NCBI GenBank assembly: GCA_903828645.1
Contig: CAIKNA010000029.1
Span: forward strand, 1-32,803
Direction: 5' to 3'
Length of the DNA: 32,803 nucleotides
Source: an uncultured Bacteroidales bacterium
GTDB lineage: Bacteria; Bacteroidota; Bacteroidia; Bacteroidales; FEN-979
Shown: piece by piece, positions 12,594-27,505 of the stretch
Layout: each line of letters begins with the position of its first letter
Position numbering within the stretch: position 1 is the stretch's first letter
Notes under the pieces: generated by a model
Told to the model about the DNA's origin: nothing
Databases searched by the model: none
What the model saw: only the letters and a program-made list of their open reading frames with translations
Translations under genes and position numbers: made by a program

Positions 12594-15578
12594 CTATTGA
12601 ACGATCACCTTTTCGCTGTAGGCCCGTTCGTTGTTCGACAAATTAAGGAAGTAGACCCCTTTGGCGTATCCCGACATATCCAGTTTCTTGCGGAAATCAG
12701 CAGGAATGGCTGTAAGTTTCTCCGAATAAAGCACCTTCCCGTTCACGTCGCTGAGGGTCAGGTTCAACTGGTTTTCCCTGCCTTTGATGGTGATGGTCAG
12801 CTCTCCGCTTACCGGATTCGGAAAAATCCTCACGGTCGATTCCAGGTTTTTCTGGTCAATTCCGGTGCAGTTTTTCACGAAGACCGCTTTTGACGATACA
12901 ACACCATCACCGCAGTCGTTGTTGCCCTTTACGGTGATGTTTCCCGACAGAGCCTGGGAACCGTATTGCAGGGTAACCGAGCTGGTGCCGGCACCTGACG
13001 TAACGGTTACCCCTGCAGGCAATGACCATACATATTGTGTTGCGCCGTTAATGGCGGGAACACTGTAAACCAGGTTGGCTGTCCCCTGGCAGATGGTGTC
13101 TTTTCCGCTTATCGCACCGGCAGCTTCAGGGATGGTTTTTACCGCAACCGATTTCAACACAACCGGTGTTTCTCCGCAACCATTCACCGCTTTCACGGTT
13201 ACATCACCCGCCGAAGTTCCCCATGTTACCTGGATGGTGTTGGTTCCCTGGCCGCTTGTGACCGTTGCACCGGTTGGCACTGTCCAGCTGTAAGTAGCTG
13301 CAGGTCCGGCCATGGCGGTTGTGAAGGTTCCACCTGTACCGGAACAAAGAATATCCGGGCCCGTTACCGGGTTGAGCGCAACCGGCGGCAGGTTCACCGT
13401 GACAGGCAATACCGATGCCAGTGGATTGTTGCCGCAATCGTTGCCGGCAATAACCTGAACAGGACCCGATGCAATGCCCCATTTAACCGATATGGCAGGT
13501 GTATTCTGGCCGCTTAAAATTACAGCATCCCCCTGGACACTCCAGGAATAGGTGGTGCCGCCAACCACTTCAACGATTGAGTATGTGGCGGTATCTCCGG
13601 CGCATATGGCTTGCAGCCCGGTTATCGGGCCAGGAGCGGCAGGCGGTGTATTGACAACAACAGTGATGCTGTCGCCCGCGGTGTGTGCAGCATTGTCGGT
13701 GACAAGCACATGGTATTTGGTCGTGGCATTAGGCGTTGCCACAGGGTTTGCAATCGCGGGGTTGCTCAGGCTTGCAGCGGGTGTCCATAAATAGGTAAGC
13801 GGAGGTGTGCCTCCAACCACCACCACATTCAGTTGCGAGGTTTGACCCTGGCAAATGACGGTTGGATTTGCACTGACCGTAGCCAGGAAATTACTTCCCG
13901 GCAGCACCTTGATGGTGGCGGTGCGCTTGTGGGCCGGTGTGCCATTCGGCCCGGTCGCAAAAAATGAAGCCGTATAATTCCCGGTTGGGACATTCCCGGT
14001 AAGAACCACCTTGACGGGCATGGAGGCCGGGTAACTTGTGATTTTGGTGCCCGAAGGATATTCAAAAGTAAGGGTCCCGGTAGCGGGAACCGGTGAAATA
14101 TTGGCTGATAAGACGACAGTATCCGTATATAACCTGACTTCAGGAATGGAGACCTGGAAAATCTTACTGTCAACTGAAGTATATAAGGTATCAACGGCAT
14201 GGTCGATGGCCATGGCATAATCGGGAAAATAGCCTGTCATGCTCTGGAAGTTCCCATTCCTGAAATCGGTCCAGCCGATCATGGATCCCTTTTTATTTGA
14301 AATTACCCCGTTGTAGTCGCCCAGGTACATGGGCGTTCCGCCTCCACCGCAGGTCGTGCAGTTGATTTTCATCTTCTTGTTGGATATGCGCTGGTTGGCA
14401 ACAAACGTAGCGCCCCCGTCGGTGGAGTATGAAGCATAAATATAGGCGCTGTCGTTGGTGGGGGTATCGCGTGTATCCATCCACATGACATAGAGTTTTC
14501 CGGTCTCCTTGTCGCACCAGATGGCTGGGTGCCATTGCTGGAAATTCTGGGTATTGGGATCATCATTCACCCTTACGGCAGCCGACCAGGTTACCCCGCC
14601 GTCGGAAGAGGACCTGCACCATACATCTGATTTATTGTTTGCTCCCGGAGGGTCGTTGGAAGCATAGACGCAATAAAATTTTCCCCGGTTTGCCCCGTAA
14701 CTGTTATCGGCAGCAATCATCGGGTAGGGGCGGGTACGCATGTTGGACACGGAATTTCTGCCGCCTACCTGCGAACCGACCGTATTGGCCCATTGTTGCG
14801 AAGATTTTTGGGTGAAGGTGGCACCACCGTCATTGGAGGTGTAAAAGGTGTACTGCGCACTGAATGAGTTTCCTCCATCGGTGACAACGTAAACAGTTCC
14901 ACCCTGGATGTTGCCCTGCGGGCCAACGGCAACCATCATGCCGGGTAAGGTTTGCGTGGTGGGTGCAAAAGTCGGTGTAAATGTTGCCCCGTGATCAAGG
15001 CTGCGGCAAAAGTTCCCCGGAGGGGAGCCGTTGGTCATGGTTGTGTAAACATAATTCGCATAGGGCCCGGAAGTCTGGTCGCACGCGATCCAGTTTTTAT
15101 CATTTCCCGCAATGGCGGTAACAGAGGGCCCCCAGGTTACACCATTATCGGTAGAAGCAAGCACTTTGCAGCCGGAGATGTTCCCGTACATGTTTTCATA
15201 AAACAGGTTTCCCAGGCTGTCGTAGGCAACCACAGGGTCGCCCGCCATGGTCGCACCGAAATTGGCCGTGTGTACGAACCAGTCGATGCCGTTTTGCGTA
15301 TTGTGCGGGGCATTGGTATTGTATGCTGTAAAATACCATGCTGGCTGATTCGGGTTCTCGGCCATGTTGTTTTCCCCAAAATCAACGCCAAGGCTGAAGT
15401 TGTCCCAATTGTCGATAGTCACGACAGATGACAGGGGCGCATCGGTATTGACCGAAGCCCTTTCGCGGAGATATTGTGGAATTTGGTCCAGGTTTGGGTT
15501 ATCTCCTTGGTATTGTGCAAATACCTGGTTTACAGTCATTAAAATGAACAGTAAACCTGCGGTTGTAAACATTTTCAT
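12594..15578 (-). CDS. Type IX-secreted protein with Asp-box (sialidase-like) repeats and PKD-like domains
   Basis: This 994-residue product has a signal peptide (residues 1-21, cut after VFA). Residues 100-460 carry five Asp-box motifs of the S-x-D-x-G-x-[TW] type at about 142-149, 193-200, 248-255, 324-331 and 385-392, indicating a BNR/sialidase-like beta-propeller. Three to four Ig/PKD-like repeats follow at about 563-903, each with a shared 'Gxx..C.G....YS....G...Y.W..P.G' pattern. The last 80 residues (915-994) are a type IX sorting domain, RIFPNPVSGELTI...SDVNGKVLYSEKL...YAKGVYFLNL. It is probably exported by the Por system and attached to or released from the cell surface. Sialidase catalytic arginines were not identified, so the propeller may bind or cleave glycans or neither. 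A promoter fits 43 nt upstream. Confidence 0.92.
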   Translation of the reverse strand: MKMFTTAGLLFILMTVNQVFAQYQGDNPNLDQIPQYLRERASVNTDAPLSSVVTIDNWDNFSLGVDFGENNMAENPNQPAWYFTAYNTNAPHNTQNGIDWFVHTANFGATMAGDPVVAYDSLGNLFYENMYGNISGCKVLASTDNGVTWGPSVTAIAGNDKNWIACDQTSGPYANYVYTTMTNGSPPGNFCRSLDHGATFTPTFAPTTQTLPGMMVAVGPQGNIQGGTVYVVTDGGNSFSAQYTFYTSNDGGATFTQKSSQQWANTVGSQVGGRNSVSNMRTRPYPMIAADNSYGANRGKFYCVYASNDPPGANNKSDVWCRSSSDGGVTWSAAVRVNDDPNTQNFQQWHPAIWCDKETGKLYVMWMDTRDTPTNDSAYIYASYSTDGGATFVANQRISNKKMKINCTTCGGGGTPMYLGDYNGVISNKKGSMIGWTDFRNGNFQSMTGYFPDYAMAIDHAVDTLYTSVDSKIFQVSIPEVRLYTDTVVLSANISPVPATGTLTFEYPSGTKITSYPASMPVKVVLTGNVPTGNYTASFFATGPNGTPAHKRTATIKVLPGSNFLATVSANPTVICQGQTSQLNVVVVGGTPPLTYLWTPAASLSNPAIANPVATPNATTKYHVLVTDNAAHTAGDSITVVVNTPPAAPGPITGLQAICAGDTATYSIVEVVGGTTYSWSVQGDAVILSGQNTPAISVKWGIASGPVQVIAGNDCGNNPLASVLPVTVNLPPVALNPVTGPDILCSGTGGTFTTAMAGPAATYSWTVPTGATVTSGQGTNTIQVTWGTSAGDVTVKAVNGCGETPVVLKSVAVKTIPEAAGAISGKDTICQGTANLVYSVPAINGATQYVWSLPAGVTVTSGAGTSSVTLQYGSQALSGNITVKGNNDCGDGVVSSKAVFVKNCTGIDQKNLESTVRIFPNPVSGELTITIKGRENQLNLTLSDVNGKVLYSEKLTAIPADFRKKLDMSGYAKGVYFLNLSNNERAYSEKVIVQ

Positions 15579-19069: not shown

Positions 19070-21535
19070 ATGAAAAACCGCTTATCGGAATCTGTCACGG
19101 AACGGATACGCATTTTGAAAAAAGAGAAAAATGCTGTAATCCTTGCGCATTATTACCAGGTTCCGGAAATACAGGATATTGCCGATTTTGTCGGCGACAG
19201 CCTGGCATTATCGCAAAATGCGTTGGAAACAAAAGCGGATATCATCCTTTTTGCCGGTGTTCACTTTATGGCTGAAACAGCTAAAATTCTGAATCCCGAC
19301 AAAAAAGTTCTGATTCCCGATCTCAATGCCGGCTGCTCGCTTGCCGATTCCTGCCCGCCTGAAAAATTCAGGAAATTCAAGTTATTGTATCCCGGTTACA
19401 AGGTGATCTCCTATATCAATTGTTCGGCACAGATCAAAACCATGTCGGATGTAATCTGCACTTCAAGCAATGCGGTGAAGATTGTCGAATCGTTCGGAAG
19501 GGATGAAAAGATCATTTTTGCACCGGATAAAAACCTTGGGGGTTATATAAATGCACTCACCGGCCGCAACATGATTTTGTGGGATGGAAGTTGTGAGGTT
19601 CACGATGTTATCAAAGCTGAAGCTGTTATTAAATTAAAGGCCGAAAACCCGGATGCAAAACTGATCGCACACCCCGAATGCAAGGCTGTCATCCTCGAAC
19701 TGGCTGACTATATCGGTTCAACGACCGGACTGCTCAATTATACCATCAGGAGCGATGCAAAAAAGTTCATTGTCGCAACAGAAACCGGCATTCTGCACCA
19801 GATGCGGAAAGCTTCGCCGGGTAAGGAGTTTTTAATCGTCCCTTCAGATGAAACATGCTCCTGCAACGACTGTCCCTACATGAAGATGAACACGCTGGAG
19901 AATCTTCATGCGGCACTTTACAACGAACGACCCGAATTGAAGTTATCGAGGAGTGTGATCGAAAAGGCGAGGAAACCCATCATGCGCATGCTTCAGCTTT
20001 CTGCGCTTACCGTCGCCTTCCTGCTCATGCTGGCTGGTGTTTATGCACAGGATACCATTCAAAAGGACGGTTTTAACAAATTTTACTATCCAAATGGCAA
20101 AGAATCCAGCGAGGGAACCTTGAAAAATGGGAAACCGGATGGATACTGGAAGGCCTATTATGAAAACGGGACCATAAAATCGGAGGGAAACCGCAAAAAT
20201 TTCGAACTTGACAGTTTGTGGAAATTTTACAACCCGGATGGAAAATTACTCGTGGAAATTTCCTACAAATCCGGAAAAAAAAGCGGGATAAAAACCACCT
20301 GGCTGGATAAGGAGACCATGAAAGAAAATTTCAGGGATGACATTAAGGAGGGATATACGAGATATTATTATCCTGATGGAAAAATCAAGCAGGAGATTCC
20401 GTTTGTCAAGGGATTTGAGCAGGGTTTCGGCAAGGAGTATGGTTCAGACGGGACCATCATCACGATGACTGAATACAAACGTGGCTTTATCGTCGACCGG
20501 GTGAGGATCAACCGGAAAGACAATTATGGGAGAAAGCAGGGCCGCTGGTACACTTTTTATGAACATGGCAACCTTAAATCGGAAGTCACCTACCAGGATG
20601 ATAAAAAAAACGGCTATCTCAAGGAATACGCCGAAAACGGGGATTTGTTGAAAATAGCAAAGTATGTGGATGATGAAATTCAACCTGAAGCGGTTGAGAT
20701 TCAGAAGCTGGAGGTGCAGAATGAATATTATCCCGATGGAAAATTAAAAGTCAGCGCCATGTTCCGGAATGGCATAGCGGAAGGGATCAAACGGGAATAC
20801 AATGCCGATGGCAATGTTGAAAAAGCGTACCTTTACAAAAATGGTGTGATCATCGGGGAGGGAATTGTAAAGGATGACGGCGACCGTGACGGTCCGTGGA
20901 AGGATTTTTATCCCGACGGGTCGCTCAGGGCGGAGGGAAATTACGACCATGGCAAACAAATAGGCGAATGGAAATTCTATCATAGCGACGGAAAAATCGA
21001 ACAGACAGGGAAATTCAACAGGCAGGGAAAATTTGAAGGCACGTGGAAGTGGTTTTTTGACAGCGGGCAGTTGTTAAAGGCGGAGAATTACCACAACGGG
21101 TTGAAAGACGGACTGTCAACCGAATATGATGAAGCAGGAAAGGTGATAGAGGAAGGCGAGTTCGTTAACAACAATGAAGACGGACCCTGGTTTGAACTTA
21201 CCGGCGATTGCTTTATTAGGGGCACATACCGCGACGGGCTCCGGAACGGGATGTGGTACAACTTTTACCTGAACCGGAACGGCAGCGTCACCGACAGCCT
21301 TTGCTTTTTCAAAGGTGGCTTTGTCGAAGACAATCCCGATGGAAAACATAGTTATTACTGGGAAAACGGCAAGGTGAAAGACGAGGGAAATTACGTCAAT
21401 GGCAGGAAAGAGGGCGAATGGTACAAATACAACTTTGACGGAACGCTTTTCATGATCACCACATATAAACAGGGGGTTGAAACACGCTATGACGGCGTAA
21501 AAATCAAACCGCCATATGAAAAAGAGGAGGAATAG
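19070..21535 (+). CDS. nadA: Quinolinate synthase NadA fused in frame to a MORN-repeat protein with an internal signal peptide
   Basis: One uninterrupted 821-residue frame encodes two proteins. Residues 1-311 are a complete quinolinate synthase, which condenses iminoaspartate with dihydroxyacetone phosphate to quinolinate for NAD synthesis. Motifs include AHYYQVPEIQDIADFVGDS, NAGCSLAD (C89), SCEVH (C175) and ETCSCNDCPYM (C268 likely); these three cysteines should hold the 4Fe-4S cluster. The usual NadA tail KPIMRML is at 303-309, where the family normally ends. Instead of a stop, a hydrophobic stretch LTVAFLLMLAGVYA (313-326) follows, then about 500 residues of repeated (F/Y)YPDGK...EG...NGK..G.W units, the MORN-2 / YwqK-like type. 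Such proteins are normally exported. The second half could be made from ATG 305 or 307. A membrane-anchored full-length fusion, an exported product from internal initiation, and an assembly error are all possible. Confidence 0.85.
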   Translation: MKNRLSESVTERIRILKKEKNAVILAHYYQVPEIQDIADFVGDSLALSQNALETKADIILFAGVHFMAETAKILNPDKKVLIPDLNAGCSLADSCPPEKFRKFKLLYPGYKVISYINCSAQIKTMSDVICTSSNAVKIVESFGRDEKIIFAPDKNLGGYINALTGRNMILWDGSCEVHDVIKAEAVIKLKAENPDAKLIAHPECKAVILELADYIGSTTGLLNYTIRSDAKKFIVATETGILHQMRKASPGKEFLIVPSDETCSCNDCPYMKMNTLENLHAALYNERPELKLSRSVIEKARKPIMRMLQLSALTVAFLLMLAGVYAQDTIQKDGFNKFYYPNGKESSEGTLKNGKPDGYWKAYYENGTIKSEGNRKNFELDSLWKFYNPDGKLLVEISYKSGKKSGIKTTWLDKETMKENFRDDIKEGYTRYYYPDGKIKQEIPFVKGFEQGFGKEYGSDGTIITMTEYKRGFIVDRVRINRKDNYGRKQGRWYTFYEHGNLKSEVTYQDDKKNGYLKEYAENGDLLKIAKYVDDEIQPEAVEIQKLEVQNEYYPDGKLKVSAMFRNGIAEGIKREYNADGNVEKAYLYKNGVIIGEGIVKDDGDRDGPWKDFYPDGSLRAEGNYDHGKQIGEWKFYHSDGKIEQTGKFNRQGKFEGTWKWFFDSGQLLKAENYHNGLKDGLSTEYDEAGKVIEEGEFVNNNEDGPWFELTGDCFIRGTYRDGLRNGMWYNFYLNRNGSVTDSLCFFKGGFVEDNPDGKHSYYWENGKVKDEGNYVNGRKEGEWYKYNFDGTLFMITTYKQGVETRYDGVKIKPPYEKEEE
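19982..20047 (+). other. Junction: NadA tail doubling as start and signal peptide of the MORN protein
   Basis: ATG codons at 19982 (residue 305) and 19988 (residue 307) open MRMLQLS, a basic n-region, followed by a 14-residue hydrophobic core and the cleavage-like end VYA|Q. The same residues finish the conserved NadA C-terminus. Read from 19982, the frame yields a 517-residue secreted protein. No strong Shine-Dalgarno is seen, which is normal in Bacteroidota. Confidence 0.6.
21524..21530 (+). promoter_or_regulatory. Strong Shine-Dalgarno of the pseudouridine synthase gene
   Basis: GAGGAGG lies 5 nt before the ATG at 21536 and is made of the last codons of the upstream gene. Such strong sites are unusual in Bacteroidota and support this start, which immediately follows the upstream TAG. 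Confidence 0.6.
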
Positions 21536-22864
21536 ATGAGGACAGAAAAACCAGATAAACCGGAAAGATCAGGCAGGTCGGACAGGGGAGAAAAACCCGC
21601 AAGAGCTGCAAGGCCGGATAGGATAAGCAAACCGGAAAGAAAAGTTGAGCCCAAAAGAGCCGGAAGGTCGGACAGGGAAGAAAAACCTGCAAGATCATCC
21701 AGGCCGGAAAAAGCAAGCAAGCCGGAGAGAAGCAGTGAACCCACAAGGGGTGGAAGGTCAGACCGGGGTGAAAGGCCGGAAAGATCGGCCAGGCCGGAGA
21801 GAAGCAGTGAACCTAAAAGGGCGGGAAGATCAGACCGGGGTGAAAGACCCGATAGGTCCCCGGCACCCGACAGGAGATATAAACCTGAAAGGAATGAGGA
21901 AAACCAAAGAACAGAGCGTCCCGGTAAACCGGTAAGACCTGGTAGACCGGGAACGGCGGAAAAACCCGGCAGGGCGGAAAGGACCGGCAAGCCTGAAAGA
22001 TCGGCCAGGGCAGAATGGACCGGCAAGCCGGAAAGATCAGCCAGACAGGAAAGAGCGATAAAGCTTGACAGGTCAAGCCTTCCGGAGAGAACCAGCAAAC
22101 CCAAAAGGGTGGTTCGCCAGGGTGAGAAAAAGGCAGATCCGGATCTGATGAGGCTGAACAAGTATATTGCCAATTCAGGGATATCCTCGCGGCGTGAAGC
22201 CGACCGGCTCATCCAGGCGGGTGCGGTATCGGTGAACGGGATCATCGTAACGGAACTGGGTACGAAAGTCGGGCCCGGCGACAAAGTTCAATATGGCGAT
22301 CAGACCATCAACCGTGAAAAGCCAAGATATGTGTTGCTTAACAAACCCAAAGGGTATATCACCACGGCCGATGATCCCGAAAAACGCAAAACGGTGATGA
22401 GTCTCGTTGCAGGTGCCTGCAAGGAGCGGATCTATCCTGTCGGGCGGCTCGACCGGAATACCACCGGTTTGCTCCTTTTTACCAACGATGGCAACATTGC
22501 CAAAAAACTGACCCATCCAAGATACGGGATCAGGAAGATCTATCATGTTGAACTGGATAAAAACCTGGCCCGGACTGATTTTGTGAAAATAGGAGAGGGG
22601 TTTAAACTTGAAGACGAAGTGGTGACGGTCGACAGCATCGAATACATTGGCGACGGTAAAGACAAAAAACAGATCGGCATCGAACTGCATTCAGGTCAGA
22701 ATCGCATTGTACGGCGCATTTTCGAACATTTTGAGTACAAGGTTTTGCGGCTTGACCGGGTATATTACGCCGGTTTGACCAAAAAGAACCTTCCCAGGGG
22801 AACCTGGCGCCTGCTCGACGAACAGGAGATAAATTTGTTGAAAATGATCAGCTCAAAACCCTGA
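21536..22864 (+). CDS. RluB/RsuA-family rRNA pseudouridine synthase with a long basic repetitive N-terminus
   Basis: This 442-residue protein has two unlike halves. Residues 1-203 are low-complexity Arg/Lys/Pro/Ser/Glu sequence with tandem repeats starting GRSDRGE at residues 13, 43, 73 and 97, then TGKPERSAR units. Residues 205-442 are a normal pseudouridine synthase. The S4 RNA-binding domain is LNKYIANSGISSRREADRLI. The catalytic core has LLNKPKGYITT and GRLDRNTTGLLLFTNDG with D306 as the catalytic aspartate. The C-terminal motifs are IYHVELDK and SGQNRIVRRIFEH. It probably isomerises a uridine in 23S or 16S rRNA. The basic tail is likely disordered and RNA- or ribosome-binding; similar extensions occur in Bacteroidota homologues. 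Translation starts directly after the nadA-MORN stop with a strong ribosome-binding site. Confidence 0.92.
   Translation: MRTEKPDKPERSGRSDRGEKPARAARPDRISKPERKVEPKRAGRSDREEKPARSSRPEKASKPERSSEPTRGGRSDRGERPERSARPERSSEPKRAGRSDRGERPDRSPAPDRRYKPERNEENQRTERPGKPVRPGRPGTAEKPGRAERTGKPERSARAEWTGKPERSARQERAIKLDRSSLPERTSKPKRVVRQGEKKADPDLMRLNKYIANSGISSRREADRLIQAGAVSVNGIIVTELGTKVGPGDKVQYGDQTINREKPRYVLLNKPKGYITTADDPEKRKTVMSLVAGACKERIYPVGRLDRNTTGLLLFTNDGNIAKKLTHPRYGIRKIYHVELDKNLARTDFVKIGEGFKLEDEVVTVDSIEYIGDGKDKKQIGIELHSGQNRIVRRIFEHFEYKVLRLDRVYYAGLTKKNLPRGTWRLLDEQEINLLKMISSKP
21572..21913 (+). repeat. Tandem imperfect 90-nt repeats in the pseudouridine synthase N-terminus
   Basis: Four units beginning with codons for GRSDR start at 21572, 21662, 21752 and 21824; the first two are 90 nt, the third 72 nt. 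All keep the reading frame. Further 36-39-nt units (TGKPERSAR) follow at about 21985-22060. They encode only the disordered basic tail. Confidence 0.75.
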
Positions 22865-22870
22865 TATACG

Positions 22871-23698
22871 ATGAATCCAATCAGTATTTATATCGTTGAA
22901 GATGAGTTGCTGATATCAGCGAATCTAAAATCACAACTCCAGCAGTTCGGATATGAGATTTCCGGCTCTTCCATACGCGGAGAGTCATGCCTCGAGGAGA
23001 TCGCTGAACTTTCGAGGCAGGGAAAAGAGCCTGAAATTGTGCTGATGGACATCCATCTGCGTGGCGAAATGGACGGAATTGAAACGGCCAAACTGATCAA
23101 TGATCAGTTCAATTGCGCCATCATCTTTCTCACCGGGCAAAGTTCAAAAGAGATATACGACAGGTCGTTTAAAATAAAACCGTTCGGATATCTCCTGAAG
23201 CCAATCGACATGGAGCAGACCAAAATGACCATTGAAATTGCATCCTACCAGCGCAACCTTGAAATTGAGAATACCCTGTACCAGAAGGATCTGGAAGCGC
23301 TGCTTGAAAAACGGTCGCAGGAAAACAAAGACATAATGGCCATGTACCAGACCATCGTGGATAATTCACTGATGGGACTGACCATCGTCCAAAATGAAGA
23401 ATTTGTTTTCGCCAACAAGAGGACCGCTGAAATATTCGGATACCCGCTTGATGAATTTTTAATGTTTGGCAGTTCAGGTATACTGAACCTGATTCATCCC
23501 GAAGACCAGGAAAAGCTGACCGCGCTTTCGGTTTCACGCCTCAACGGAGACGAATTGCTGCAGAATACGCGAATCCGGATTTATACCCGCGACAAACAGC
23601 TGAAACAGATTGAAACCCATATCAAGGCAGTTCAGTTCAAAGGAAAACCGGCACTTCACCAGACATTTCTTGATATCACAAATTTTTACCAGACATGA
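22871..23698 (+). CDS. Response-regulator receiver plus PAS domain protein without output domain
   Basis: This 275-residue protein has an N-terminal REC domain (1-125) with E10/D11, phospho-acceptor D60 in VLMDIHLRG, T88 in FLTG and K110 in YLLKPI, all as expected for a phosphorylatable receiver. A helical linker (EIENTLYQKDLEALLEKRSQ, about 131-155) follows, then a PAS domain (about 160-275: TIVDNSLMGLTIVQ, FGYPLDEF, IHPEDQEKL). It ends there: no histidine kinase, GGDEF or DNA-binding domain follows, so it may act by protein contact or as a truncated sensor kinase. It starts 6 nt after rluB and overlaps the next gene by 4 nt (ATGA), so it is translationally coupled. A cognate kinase is not in the window. 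Confidence 0.9.
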   Translation: MNPISIYIVEDELLISANLKSQLQQFGYEISGSSIRGESCLEEIAELSRQGKEPEIVLMDIHLRGEMDGIETAKLINDQFNCAIIFLTGQSSKEIYDRSFKIKPFGYLLKPIDMEQTKMTIEIASYQRNLEIENTLYQKDLEALLEKRSQENKDIMAMYQTIVDNSLMGLTIVQNEEFVFANKRTAEIFGYPLDEFLMFGSSGILNLIHPEDQEKLTALSVSRLNGDELLQNTRIRIYTRDKQLKQIETHIKAVQFKGKPALHQTFLDITNFYQT

Positions 23699-25641
23699 AA
23701 AAAGGCATGCTGTTGCTCCTGCAACTAGGTTTCATTACCTGTTTTTATGGTCAGTCTGTCGCTGACCTGGTTCAGAAAGCCGGCGATGCCGCCGCATATC
23801 CCAACCATGACCAGCTGATCATTTTTGACAGCACCAACGTCGATATGCAGGAAACGGGACTGACGTATATCGTCAACCATACCCTTACCAAAGTGCTGAC
23901 CAATCACGGGGCCATCGATCTGAGCGCGATCAAATATGGCTACGACCCGTTGTCGGCGTTTGTAGAGATCAGAAAAGCGGTGATTTACCGGCACGACGGC
24001 CGGATCATTGAACTTGACGTTCACAAAACACTTGATTATCCTGCCCCGGCAAGGGCGATATACTGGGGAGCCAGGGAGATTATGCTTGAAACCGGACGGC
24101 TGGAACCGGGCGATGCCGTGGAGATGGTCATGTTCCGAAAAGGGTTTACCTACGCGCTGCTCTCCCCCGGCGAGGATGACAGATATATTCCGCCGATGAA
24201 AGGCCAGTTCTATGATATCGTTGAATTTTTTGGCAACTATCCCATCAAAAATAAAGTTTACCGGGTCACCGTTCCGAAGGACAAACCGCTCCAGTATCAA
24301 TTTTATAACGGGGAGGCACAGGTCTCCTGTTGGTTTGAGAATGGCAAAATGGTCTATAACTTCAGTAAAAAAGAGATCTTCCCGATAAAAATGGAGCCCC
24401 GCATGGTGGCCATGGTCGACGTTTCACCGAAGTTGTTGGTATCAACCACCCCCGACTGGAATGCGAAATCAACCTGGTTTTATAAAGTGAACGAGGATTT
24501 TGGCAGTTTCATTCCCGGAAAAGAGATCGGCGATAAGGTAAATGAGATCCTGAAAGGCGCCCGGGATGAGATGGATTCGGTTTCCAGGCTGACCCACTGG
24601 TGTGCCGACGAAGTTCGCTATTCGGGCATTTCAATGGGCTGCGGCGAAGGGTTCACCCTGCACAAGGGGACAATGACCTTTACCGACCGGTGCGGCGTAT
24701 GCAAGGATAAAGCCGGGATGCTGATCACCATGCTGCGGGCAGCCGGATTTAATGCCTATCCTGCGATGACCATGGCCGGATCGCGTATCGACTACATCCC
24801 TGCCGATCAGTTCAACCATTGCGTAACGGTTGTCAAACTGCATGATGGAAAGTACCACCTGCTCGACCCGACCTGGGTTCCGTTTGTCCGTGAACTATGG
24901 TCGAGCGCCGAACAACAGCAGCAATACCTGATGGGTGTTCCCGAAGGCGCCGACCTGGCAACAACCCCGGTATCCGATCCTGAAAACCATTATATAAAGA
25001 TTGACGGTGTTGCCCGGCTGCAGGCAAACGGAACCCTTGCCGGCCGGATCACCGTCACGGGCGAGGGGCAGTCGGATGCTGCGATCCGCGGATTGTTCAA
25101 GAGTTCGAACAGAACAGCCTGGTATCAGAATGTTGAACGGGAATTGCTCCGGCTGTGGCCCCAGGCAAAAGTATCGCAGGTCAAATACACCGACCCGGTG
25201 GATTACCAGAAATACAACATCTGGATCGCGATCGACTATGAGATCCCTGAATTTGCCCTGGTTTCGGGTAACATGATGATGTTTACCCCGCTTTCGGCAG
25301 GGGAGATTTTCAAGCCTTACCAGGGCCAGCTTTCTTTTGAAACCGGGATGAAGGAACGCAAATATCCCTTCCGCGACCGGTGCTCCCGGAAAGTGGAGAT
25401 CAACGAATCCATCGCGCTCCCGGCACCGAATAAAATGGTTCAAATCCCTCTCTCTGTCGCAAAATCCGGGGAGGCAGCATCCTACCAGGGCTCCTATTCC
25501 GTGACCAATGGCTCCCTGATTTTTTCAGGGAAATCGGTTTTCACCAAACGGCAATATGAGCCTCAGGAGTGGCCCGAATTTAAGGCCGCCGTCGACGCCC
25601 AGAACAGGTTTGCCGAAGAGCCTGTCATCATTGAGTTATAA
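23695..25641 (+). CDS. Secreted DUF3857 / transglutaminase-like protein, intact catalytic triad
   Basis: This 648-residue protein has a signal peptide (residues 1-19, MLLLLQLGFITCFYG). A DUF3857 beta-rich domain covers about 35-250. A transglutaminase-like cysteine-protease fold spans about 280-420 with the triad C336 (GVCKDKAGML), H375 (FNHCVTVV) and D391 (LLDPTW). The remainder is a beta-rich tail. Bacterial proteins of this group are thought to be peptidases or peptide-ligating enzymes of the periplasm; the substrate is unknown. The start overlaps the stop of the REC-PAS gene. A shorter, related gene follows after 28 nt. Confidence 0.9.
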   Translation: MKKGMLLLLQLGFITCFYGQSVADLVQKAGDAAAYPNHDQLIIFDSTNVDMQETGLTYIVNHTLTKVLTNHGAIDLSAIKYGYDPLSAFVEIRKAVIYRHDGRIIELDVHKTLDYPAPARAIYWGAREIMLETGRLEPGDAVEMVMFRKGFTYALLSPGEDDRYIPPMKGQFYDIVEFFGNYPIKNKVYRVTVPKDKPLQYQFYNGEAQVSCWFENGKMVYNFSKKEIFPIKMEPRMVAMVDVSPKLLVSTTPDWNAKSTWFYKVNEDFGSFIPGKEIGDKVNEILKGARDEMDSVSRLTHWCADEVRYSGISMGCGEGFTLHKGTMTFTDRCGVCKDKAGMLITMLRAAGFNAYPAMTMAGSRIDYIPADQFNHCVTVVKLHDGKYHLLDPTWVPFVRELWSSAEQQQQYLMGVPEGADLATTPVSDPENHYIKIDGVARLQANGTLAGRITVTGEGQSDAAIRGLFKSSNRTAWYQNVERELLRLWPQAKVSQVKYTDPVDYQKYNIWIAIDYEIPEFALVSGNMMMFTPLSAGEIFKPYQGQLSFETGMKERKYPFRDRCSRKVEINESIALPAPNKMVQIPLSVAKSGEAASYQGSYSVTNGSLIFSGKSVFTKRQYEPQEWPEFKAAVDAQNRFAEEPVIIEL

Positions 25642-25669
25642 ACCAAAGTTCCTTTAGAAACCTTCAGGC

Positions 25670-27505
25670 ATGAGCGCAAAAGTTCTGATCTTTTTTCTCT
25701 TTTTCACCGCGACAATTCTATCCCCGCCAATCCAGGCCCAGGATGACAAATACGATGCATGGTACGCTTCCCTGGTTAAAGAGTATACCCTGAATCCTGA
25801 CGGAAGCATGGATTACAGGTTCATCAAGCAACAAAAATTACTGACCTACCGTGCGTTTCATAATCTTTACGGGGAGACCTTTATCACCTGCAACCCGGTT
25901 TACCAGAAATTGAAGATCAATGAAGACTACACCCTGATGGCCGACGGGAAAAAAATCGTTGCACCGCAGAATTCATTCAATGAAGTGCTGCCCGGTTTCG
26001 CTGCCAATGCCCCTGCCTATAATTCACTGCGTGAAATGGTGATCACCCACACGGCACTTGAACGCAATGCGACCGTAAACCTGGATTATGAGATCCACAC
26101 GGTTCAGGGGGCCTTTCCGGCCATGATGGGCAATGAATTGCTCGCTGAGAATGAGCCGGTGAAAAATCTTGAAATCCGGGTGCGTATTCCTGCCGGGCAG
26201 AGTCTCTTTTTTCACCTGTTCAATTTGGAACTTCAGCCTGAAAAAAGTTCAGACGGGAAATTCCAGGTCTATACCTGGAAGTTGAATGATCTTGCAGCCA
26301 TTTCTGCCGAAGAGGCGCAACAGGGGGCAAACGAACGCTATCCCCGGCTTGTTTTCAGCACTTCCGGAAAGCGTGAGGAGGTGTTTTCTTTTCTGACAGG
26401 TCAGCCTGCATTTGGTTTTGCCCTTTCGGACCAGATGAAACAGGCTGTCAACACGATTGCGACGGGTAAAAAAGATAAATTTGAAATCGCCCTGAAAATC
26501 CAGGAAATGGTGGTGAACGATTTGCGTTTGTATCCTATTCCATTGCGTTACGCGTTGTATCAATGCCGCACCCCGGAGCAAACCTGGAACAGCAATGGCG
26601 GTACCGCGGTTGAAAAAGCGGCATTGCTTGCCGCATTGCTCACCTCGGCAGGAGAGGATGCGGAGGTAGTCGGAATTGTAAGAACCGCCTTTGCCGATGA
26701 AAAAATCGCTACCCTGGCCGACATCGAAGATTTTGCCGTGAAACTGGAAAACAAGGAGCGGGGAACATGGTATATGTCGGTTACGGGGCTTAATCCTGTC
26801 AACCTGAAATCAATCCTTCCGGGCCGGTCATTCATCCCATTGAAACCAGGCGCGAAGCCGGCCATTGTCAAAACGGAGATACCAAAGCAAATGGTCAAGG
26901 TTATCGGAAATTTTATCGTTTCATCCGATCCTAAACTTACCGGTGAGATCTCGGTTTATTATGAAGGAGCCGTTTATCCGCTGGCCGGCCTTTTGCGTGA
27001 CAAAAAAAGGATGAAAAATTCGATTTCCGGCGGATTGATCGGAAACGACACCACCAACCTGAAAGTTAGCACGCTGAATACTGAAAATGGCTTTCAGACA
27101 TTCATCGCGCAAAGCGATAAGCCATTCCGGAAGGATTCGAATTACTACTTTTTCAACCTTCCTGTTTCAACGGCAGGAATAGAGAGCTGGGGAATCAAAA
27201 CCCTTTCGGCCAGGCGCGAAACACCCTATGAAATACCCTCCCTGGCCGATGAAAGTTATTCCTTTACCCTTACGCTGCCTTCCTCTTTCAGTTTGTTTAC
27301 CCCGGCAAAAAAACTCGACATCAGCAACAAGGCCGGAACCTTTGTGTGGGAGGTAAAAACCGCGGATGGAAAGGCAACCATAAAGCGGCAATTGAAATTC
27401 AGCGAACGGGTTTTCGATGTTTCTTCCTATCCCGATTTTAAGATCCTGATGGATTACTGGAACAATCCCTGGTACCGGCAGCTGATATTCGTGTCCGGGA
27501 GTTAG
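25670..27505 (+). CDS. Secreted DUF3857 / transglutaminase-like paralogue, catalytic cysteine missing
   Basis: This 611-residue protein has a signal peptide (residues 1-23, ...PPIQAQ), a DUF3857-like region, and a transglutaminase-like fold. In place of the GVCKDKAGML motif of its neighbour it has GGTAVEKAALLAALLTSAG; the catalytic cysteine position is A313. The region GTWYMSVTGLNPV occupies the place where the His/Asp strand would lie, without the expected histidine. It is therefore probably a catalytically dead paralogue serving a binding or scaffold role. The pair of active and inactive copies in tandem suggests they work as a complex. It is the last gene of the operon and ends 6 nt from the converging dnaG. 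Confidence 0.85.
   Translation: MSAKVLIFFLFFTATILSPPIQAQDDKYDAWYASLVKEYTLNPDGSMDYRFIKQQKLLTYRAFHNLYGETFITCNPVYQKLKINEDYTLMADGKKIVAPQNSFNEVLPGFAANAPAYNSLREMVITHTALERNATVNLDYEIHTVQGAFPAMMGNELLAENEPVKNLEIRVRIPAGQSLFFHLFNLELQPEKSSDGKFQVYTWKLNDLAAISAEEAQQGANERYPRLVFSTSGKREEVFSFLTGQPAFGFALSDQMKQAVNTIATGKKDKFEIALKIQEMVVNDLRLYPIPLRYALYQCRTPEQTWNSNGGTAVEKAALLAALLTSAGEDAEVVGIVRTAFADEKIATLADIEDFAVKLENKERGTWYMSVTGLNPVNLKSILPGRSFIPLKPGAKPAIVKTEIPKQMVKVIGNFIVSSDPKLTGEISVYYEGAVYPLAGLLRDKKRMKNSISGGLIGNDTTNLKVSTLNTENGFQTFIAQSDKPFRKDSNYYFFNLPVSTAGIESWGIKTLSARRETPYEIPSLADESYSFTLTLPSSFSLFTPAKKLDISNKAGTFVWEVKTADGKATIKRQLKFSERVFDVSSYPDFKILMDYWNNPWYRQLIFVSGS

Follow-up and report, generated by a model that had tools for sequence, protein, structure and literature searches.

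An in-frame join of NadA and an exported MORN-repeat protein in two species of one Bacteroidales genus

A single open frame of 821 codons and a stop spans positions 19070-21535 on the forward strand of the stretch of Bacteroidales DNA analyzed here (the window, 32,803 nucleotides). It encodes a complete NadA (quinolinate synthase) domain (residues 1-311, 19070-20002), a hydrophobic signal-peptide core (residues 312-326, 20003-20047), and an exported MORN_2 repeat protein (residues 327-821 and the stop, 20048-21535), all on the forward strand. A sequence-only reading had described this frame as NadA running through a signal-peptide-like core ending in VYA/Q into MORN_2 repeats, and both the frame and its Pfam matches confirm that description. 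The join is more than a chance occurrence: a second genome of the same genus (G016) carries a stop-less join of identical length. We consider it probable, judging from the sequence, that an in-frame deletion fused the two genes and that the product is one polypeptide, inserted by Sec in an N-in/C-out orientation and cut by signal peptidase I between Ala326 and Gln327.

In the NadA half, the Pfam family PF02445 matches residues 11-309 over its full length (profile positions 1-295 of 295), the NCBIfam nadA equivalogs NF006878 and TIGR00550 both score above their cut-offs, and quinolinate synthases in the PDB align with residues 10-310. In a 73-row NadA alignment, Cys175 and Cys268 are invariant and Cys89 is found in at least 90% of rows; the three residues align to cysteines of the PDB quinolinate synthase 4p3x, and we take them to be the three Fe-S cluster cysteines. 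The domain ends in the tail KPIMRMLQLS, as in relatives, with Ser311 at 20000-20002. No stop follows: ALTVAFLLMLAGVYA (residues 312-326) leads straight into QDTIQ (from residue 327, 20048). The normal NadA C-terminus is therefore absent and 510 more residues follow, which affects the product and not the membership of the domain in its family. The single NadA match in the window genome is the sole nadA found there; the genome also has one nadB and one nadC, each above cut-off, and a signal peptidase I. Elsewhere in the family, genomes G004, G006 and G031 (86%, 94% and 88% complete, respectively) gave no NadA match, which may reflect either loss or missing sequence.

In a model of residues 1-345 (mean pLDDT 89.1, pTM 0.84), the NadA part is well predicted. 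The last NadA helix (approximately residues 294-311, VIEKARKPIMRMLQLS, 19949-20002, forward strand) is basic, with a net charge of +3; in the model this helix extends over residues 294-321, with pLDDT below 50 from residue 314. A modelled helix running into the core fits a direct hand-over of the chain to the membrane. The lack of a linker between helix and core would count against easy tethering, and may strain folding or insertion.

The other Pfam family in the frame is MORN_2 (PF07661), and an orthologue of this part follows nadA in relatives. The window MORN part is 85% identical over 490 residues to the MORN protein of an unfused genome of the genus (G018), and is orthologous to the separate genes. 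In the model (mean pLDDT 89.7, pTM 0.53) it forms a long all-beta repeat, which resembles solved MORN1 chains with target TM-scores of 0.38-0.58. The top Foldseek hits of this model (Rhs, teneurin and toxin chains) have query TM-scores of at most 0.16 and were rejected as generic beta-repeat matches, not kin.

Several neighboring genes can be described from the window. Directly after the fusion stop begins a pseudouridine synthase with an S4 domain (21536-22861, forward strand), whose long basic N-terminal part is encoded by tandem repeats of 90, 36 and 18 nt. At 23695-27502 (forward strand) come two DUF3857 proteins in a row, of which the first contains a transglutaminase core; this pair adjoins the fusion locus in the genus relatives examined, up to the limits of their contigs. 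On the reverse strand (12597-15578), a 994-residue protein combines PKD-like domains and BNR repeats with a Por secretion-system sorting tail at its C-terminus, a hint of a type IX secretion system.

In relatives, nadA and MORN adjoin as separate genes: nadA stops near the same place, and MORN has its own signal peptide. Gene content, order and direction in these pairs match the fusion, except that nadA has a stop and MORN a start of its own, both of which are gone in the fusion. We took 66 nadA-MORN loci, of which 65 are distinct (L113 repeats L096), and read the DNA directly: in 63 nadA ends at a stop and MORN starts separately, and two are fused, a count that is silent on how often the genes adjoin, the loci having been picked for holding both. 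When the protein was searched against 61 genomes (the window genome and 60 relatives), 60 matched at E up to 0.001. The NadA tail was found in 36 of the 43 genomes of the family set, and among these only the window genome and G016 (contig C126) run without a stop into MORN. Within the genus (19 genomes) the pair is present in 17, of which two are fused, and G004 and G006 gave weak matches only. The NadA end was found in 181 of 190 loci, a set with several loci per genome: 175 stop within 13 codons of residue 312, one (L167) runs into N, and five run on, two of them from the window genome and three from G016. On a wider scale, the window is the sole stop-free join among the matches listed for the order (393 genomes) and the sole one listed for the class (198 genomes, 66 matching at 1e-24), G016 being outside the genomes drawn for either set. 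Sixteen in-frame look-alikes (G041, G046, G220, G262, G342, G082, G229, G305, G186, G302, G601, G572, G542, G585, G473 and G583) were found to have a nadA stop on direct reading; the computed open-frame length can be large even with an internal stop (as in G013) and was not used as evidence.

The adjacency of nadA and an exported MORN gene is old and widespread in the order, being seen in loci of many families, and there may be a functional or translational link between the two even where the genes are separate. The fusion itself is real, restricted to one lineage, and present in two species. It is not the case that all the closest relatives keep the genes separate while the window alone differs, since G016 shares the join. 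Literature searches yielded only plant Fe-S papers for NadA fusions, and nothing for quinolinate synthase together with MORN repeats.

Comparison with the genus relatives indicates how the join may have arisen. The locus spans 2523 nt in G018, G001, G012, G003, G002 and G008, and 2463 nt in the window. The 20 codons missing from the fusion comprise the last nadA codon (usually Glu) with its stop, the intergenic spacer, and the beginning of MORN, start and n-region included. We propose that in an ancestor within the genus a 60-nt deletion between the adjacent, co-directional nadA and MORN genes removed everything from the nadA stop through the spacer to the MORN start codon and n-region, and would have left the remainder of the MORN signal peptide in frame behind NadA. 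The distance from LS to Q is 15 residues in both the window and G016, and this equal spacing suggests that one event produced both joins. A tree built from nadA, MORN and four genes further downstream (7743 columns for 12 genomes) does not separate the window, the unfused G018 and G016; the alternative groupings are about equally good (p-AU 0.32 for window with G016, 0.48 for window with G018, 0.39 for G016 with G018), so that two parallel deletions of equal length are possible. The MORN protein tree places the window weakly with G018 (91/69), and the NadA tree, which includes only a partial NadA from G016, does not settle the branching order of the three. We also weighed a deletion between short repeats, but the ordinary LELS retained in G016 puts the break after LS, and the idea was dropped.

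The core at the join retains the features of a cleavable signal peptide. Its 12-residue hydropathy maximum is 2.57, inside the range of the separate MORN signal peptides, and its sequence agrees with the signal peptidase I/Q-rule pattern: hydrophobic, with a small residue at -1 and Gln at +1. The cut is predicted between Ala326 and Gln327 (20047/20048, forward strand), and Ala at -1, Val at -3 and Gln at +1 are kept in both fused species (VYA/Q in the window, VHA/Q in G016) although their cores differ. In the separate pairs, the MORN signal peptide usually ends in Ala, Ser or Gly before Gln; by a simple rule that misplaces a few, this residue is Ala in 28, Ser in 13 and Gly in 9 of 66 rows, fused rows included. 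Signal peptidase I products that start with Gln, the Bacteroidetes Q-rule, are described in PMC5837995 and likewise in PMC10653852. The substrates described in the former share with the fusion the hydrophobic core, Ala at -1 and Gln at +1; the fusion differs from them in that its signal is internal, behind 311 residues of folded cytosolic enzyme, unless translation starts at codon 305 or 307.

The charge expected before a signal core is also present. Among the 63 separate loci, 60 have an ATG start as assigned by rule, and the charge before the core is positive in 55 of these and not in the other five. In the fused genes this charge is +3 (window) and +2 (G016), supplied by the last NadA helix, which thus appears to occupy the place of the n-region and to play a dual role. 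The earlier suggestion that the same nucleotides might serve as the end of one protein and the start of another holds in an adapted form, in which the last NadA helix would stand in for the deleted n-region.

Taken as a sequence of steps, the fused product would be one polypeptide whose NadA part folds in the cytoplasm, with its basic last helix serving as the n-region. Sec would insert the former signal core N-in/C-out, the MORN repeats would pass the inner membrane, and signal peptidase I would most likely cut at the predicted site. The products would be a NadA with a hydrophobic membrane tail, presumably still active, and a mature MORN protein with N-terminal Gln, as in relatives.

The same open join would also be present if the signal core were never cut and acted as a permanent anchor, giving a bitopic inner-membrane protein whose NadA domain faces the cytoplasm and whose MORN repeats lie in the periplasm. 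This topology is common among bacterial proteins: in RodZ, ToxR and CadC a single membrane segment separates a cytoplasmic from a periplasmic domain, in the N-in/C-out orientation predicted for the fusion. The fusion differs from them in having no linker between enzyme and segment, and in that its segment derives from a signal peptide and still carries a cut site. A plain anchor needs none of the Ala, Val and Gln positions that persist in both fused species, an argument that is weak because it rests on two sequences. We regard an uncleaved product as unlikely, though credible. The membrane tether raised by the sequence-only reading is possible, although the cleavable site persists.

Less credible is that internal initiation at codon 307 (or 305) yields a free pre-MORN protein beside the long fusion. 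The window does have ATG at both codons (Met305 at 19982 and Met307 at 19988; 19982-19990, forward strand), with GAGG 9 nt before codon 305, and a MORN protein made in this way would look normal after cleavage. Against this, G016 has CTG at codon 305 and does not keep the GAGG. Met307 is invariant in the 73-row NadA alignment regardless of any fusion, so its presence says nothing about its use as a start. Initiation at 307 would leave a charge before the core of 0 in the window and -1 in G016, at odds with the positive charge of nearly all the separate ATG-start genes. Furthermore, GC content is 50% and 60% in the 20 nt preceding codons 305 and 307, respectively, compared with a mean of 28% at the 60 separate MORN starts, a gap that stems partly from the higher GC of the window genome; upstream GC reaches 50% in four of those 60, and a Shine-Dalgarno-like word occurs in one. 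The proposal of internal starts is thus weakened but keeps a small probability. Internal initiation could add free MORN protein to the proposed fusion product, but would leave NadA inside the fusion.

The two remaining explanations, an assembly artifact and a decaying gene, are both highly improbable. Loss of the stop and spacer through assembly or sequencing error would draw on the fact that both fused genomes are fragmented assemblies: the window genome has 409 contigs and a listed contamination of 4.57%, and in G016 a contig break divides nadA near residue 145, at a distance from the join, its front part presumably belonging with the rest. The independent G016 genome nevertheless makes such an error very unlikely: it carries a join of identical length, the two genomes being 80.2% identical in DNA over nadA and MORN (approximately 84% and 85% in the respective proteins), and each join lies within the body of its contig. 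A recent breakage, with NadA or MORN out of use, found no support in the analysis; it is opposed by a frame free of internal stops and frameshifts, by a NadA that is the genome's sole copy with nadB and nadC present, and by low dN/dS in both halves. Between window and G016 we obtained pS 0.74 and dN/dS 0.027 for NadA, and pS 0.60 and dN/dS 0.069 for MORN (Nei-Gojobori, with dS near saturation and values correspondingly rough); unfused pairs gave a similar 0.029-0.069. By these estimates both halves are under strong purifying selection. Terminal branches (0.09-0.12 for fused rows) are comparable to those of unfused G018 (0.08-0.10). An alignment mixing NadA-only and MORN-only rows aligned badly and was left out. 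The open join in two species, with both halves conserved, thus supports a true fusion.

It is instructive to compare the proposed fusion precursor with a known bacterial polyprotein. FbcH of Bradyrhizobium is a cytochrome b/c1 precursor that is split by signal peptidase. Like the nadA-MORN product, it carries two proteins in a single precursor, with an internal signal sequence where they meet; unlike it, FbcH joins two subunits of one membrane complex, whereas here a soluble Fe-S enzyme is joined to an unrelated exported repeat protein, and the cleavage is a prediction. Our literature search for a bacterial precursor split by signal peptidase found no such paper.

The fused and separate loci together offer a before-and-after view of how one deletion can merge genes for different compartments and the merger persist. 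On the proposed reading, a signal peptide placed internally, after a folded enzyme of 311 residues, should be usable and open to cleavage. The locus also carries a warning for annotation: automatic naming would label the gene for one of the two proteins and overlook the other. For the organism, we put it at about even chances that the sole NadA found is made only as the front of an exported precursor, so that each copy would arise at the inner membrane 1:1 with a periplasmic MORN partner and be separated from it by signal peptidase; such a polyprotein would go back to a single 60-nt deletion and would have been kept while the two species diverged.
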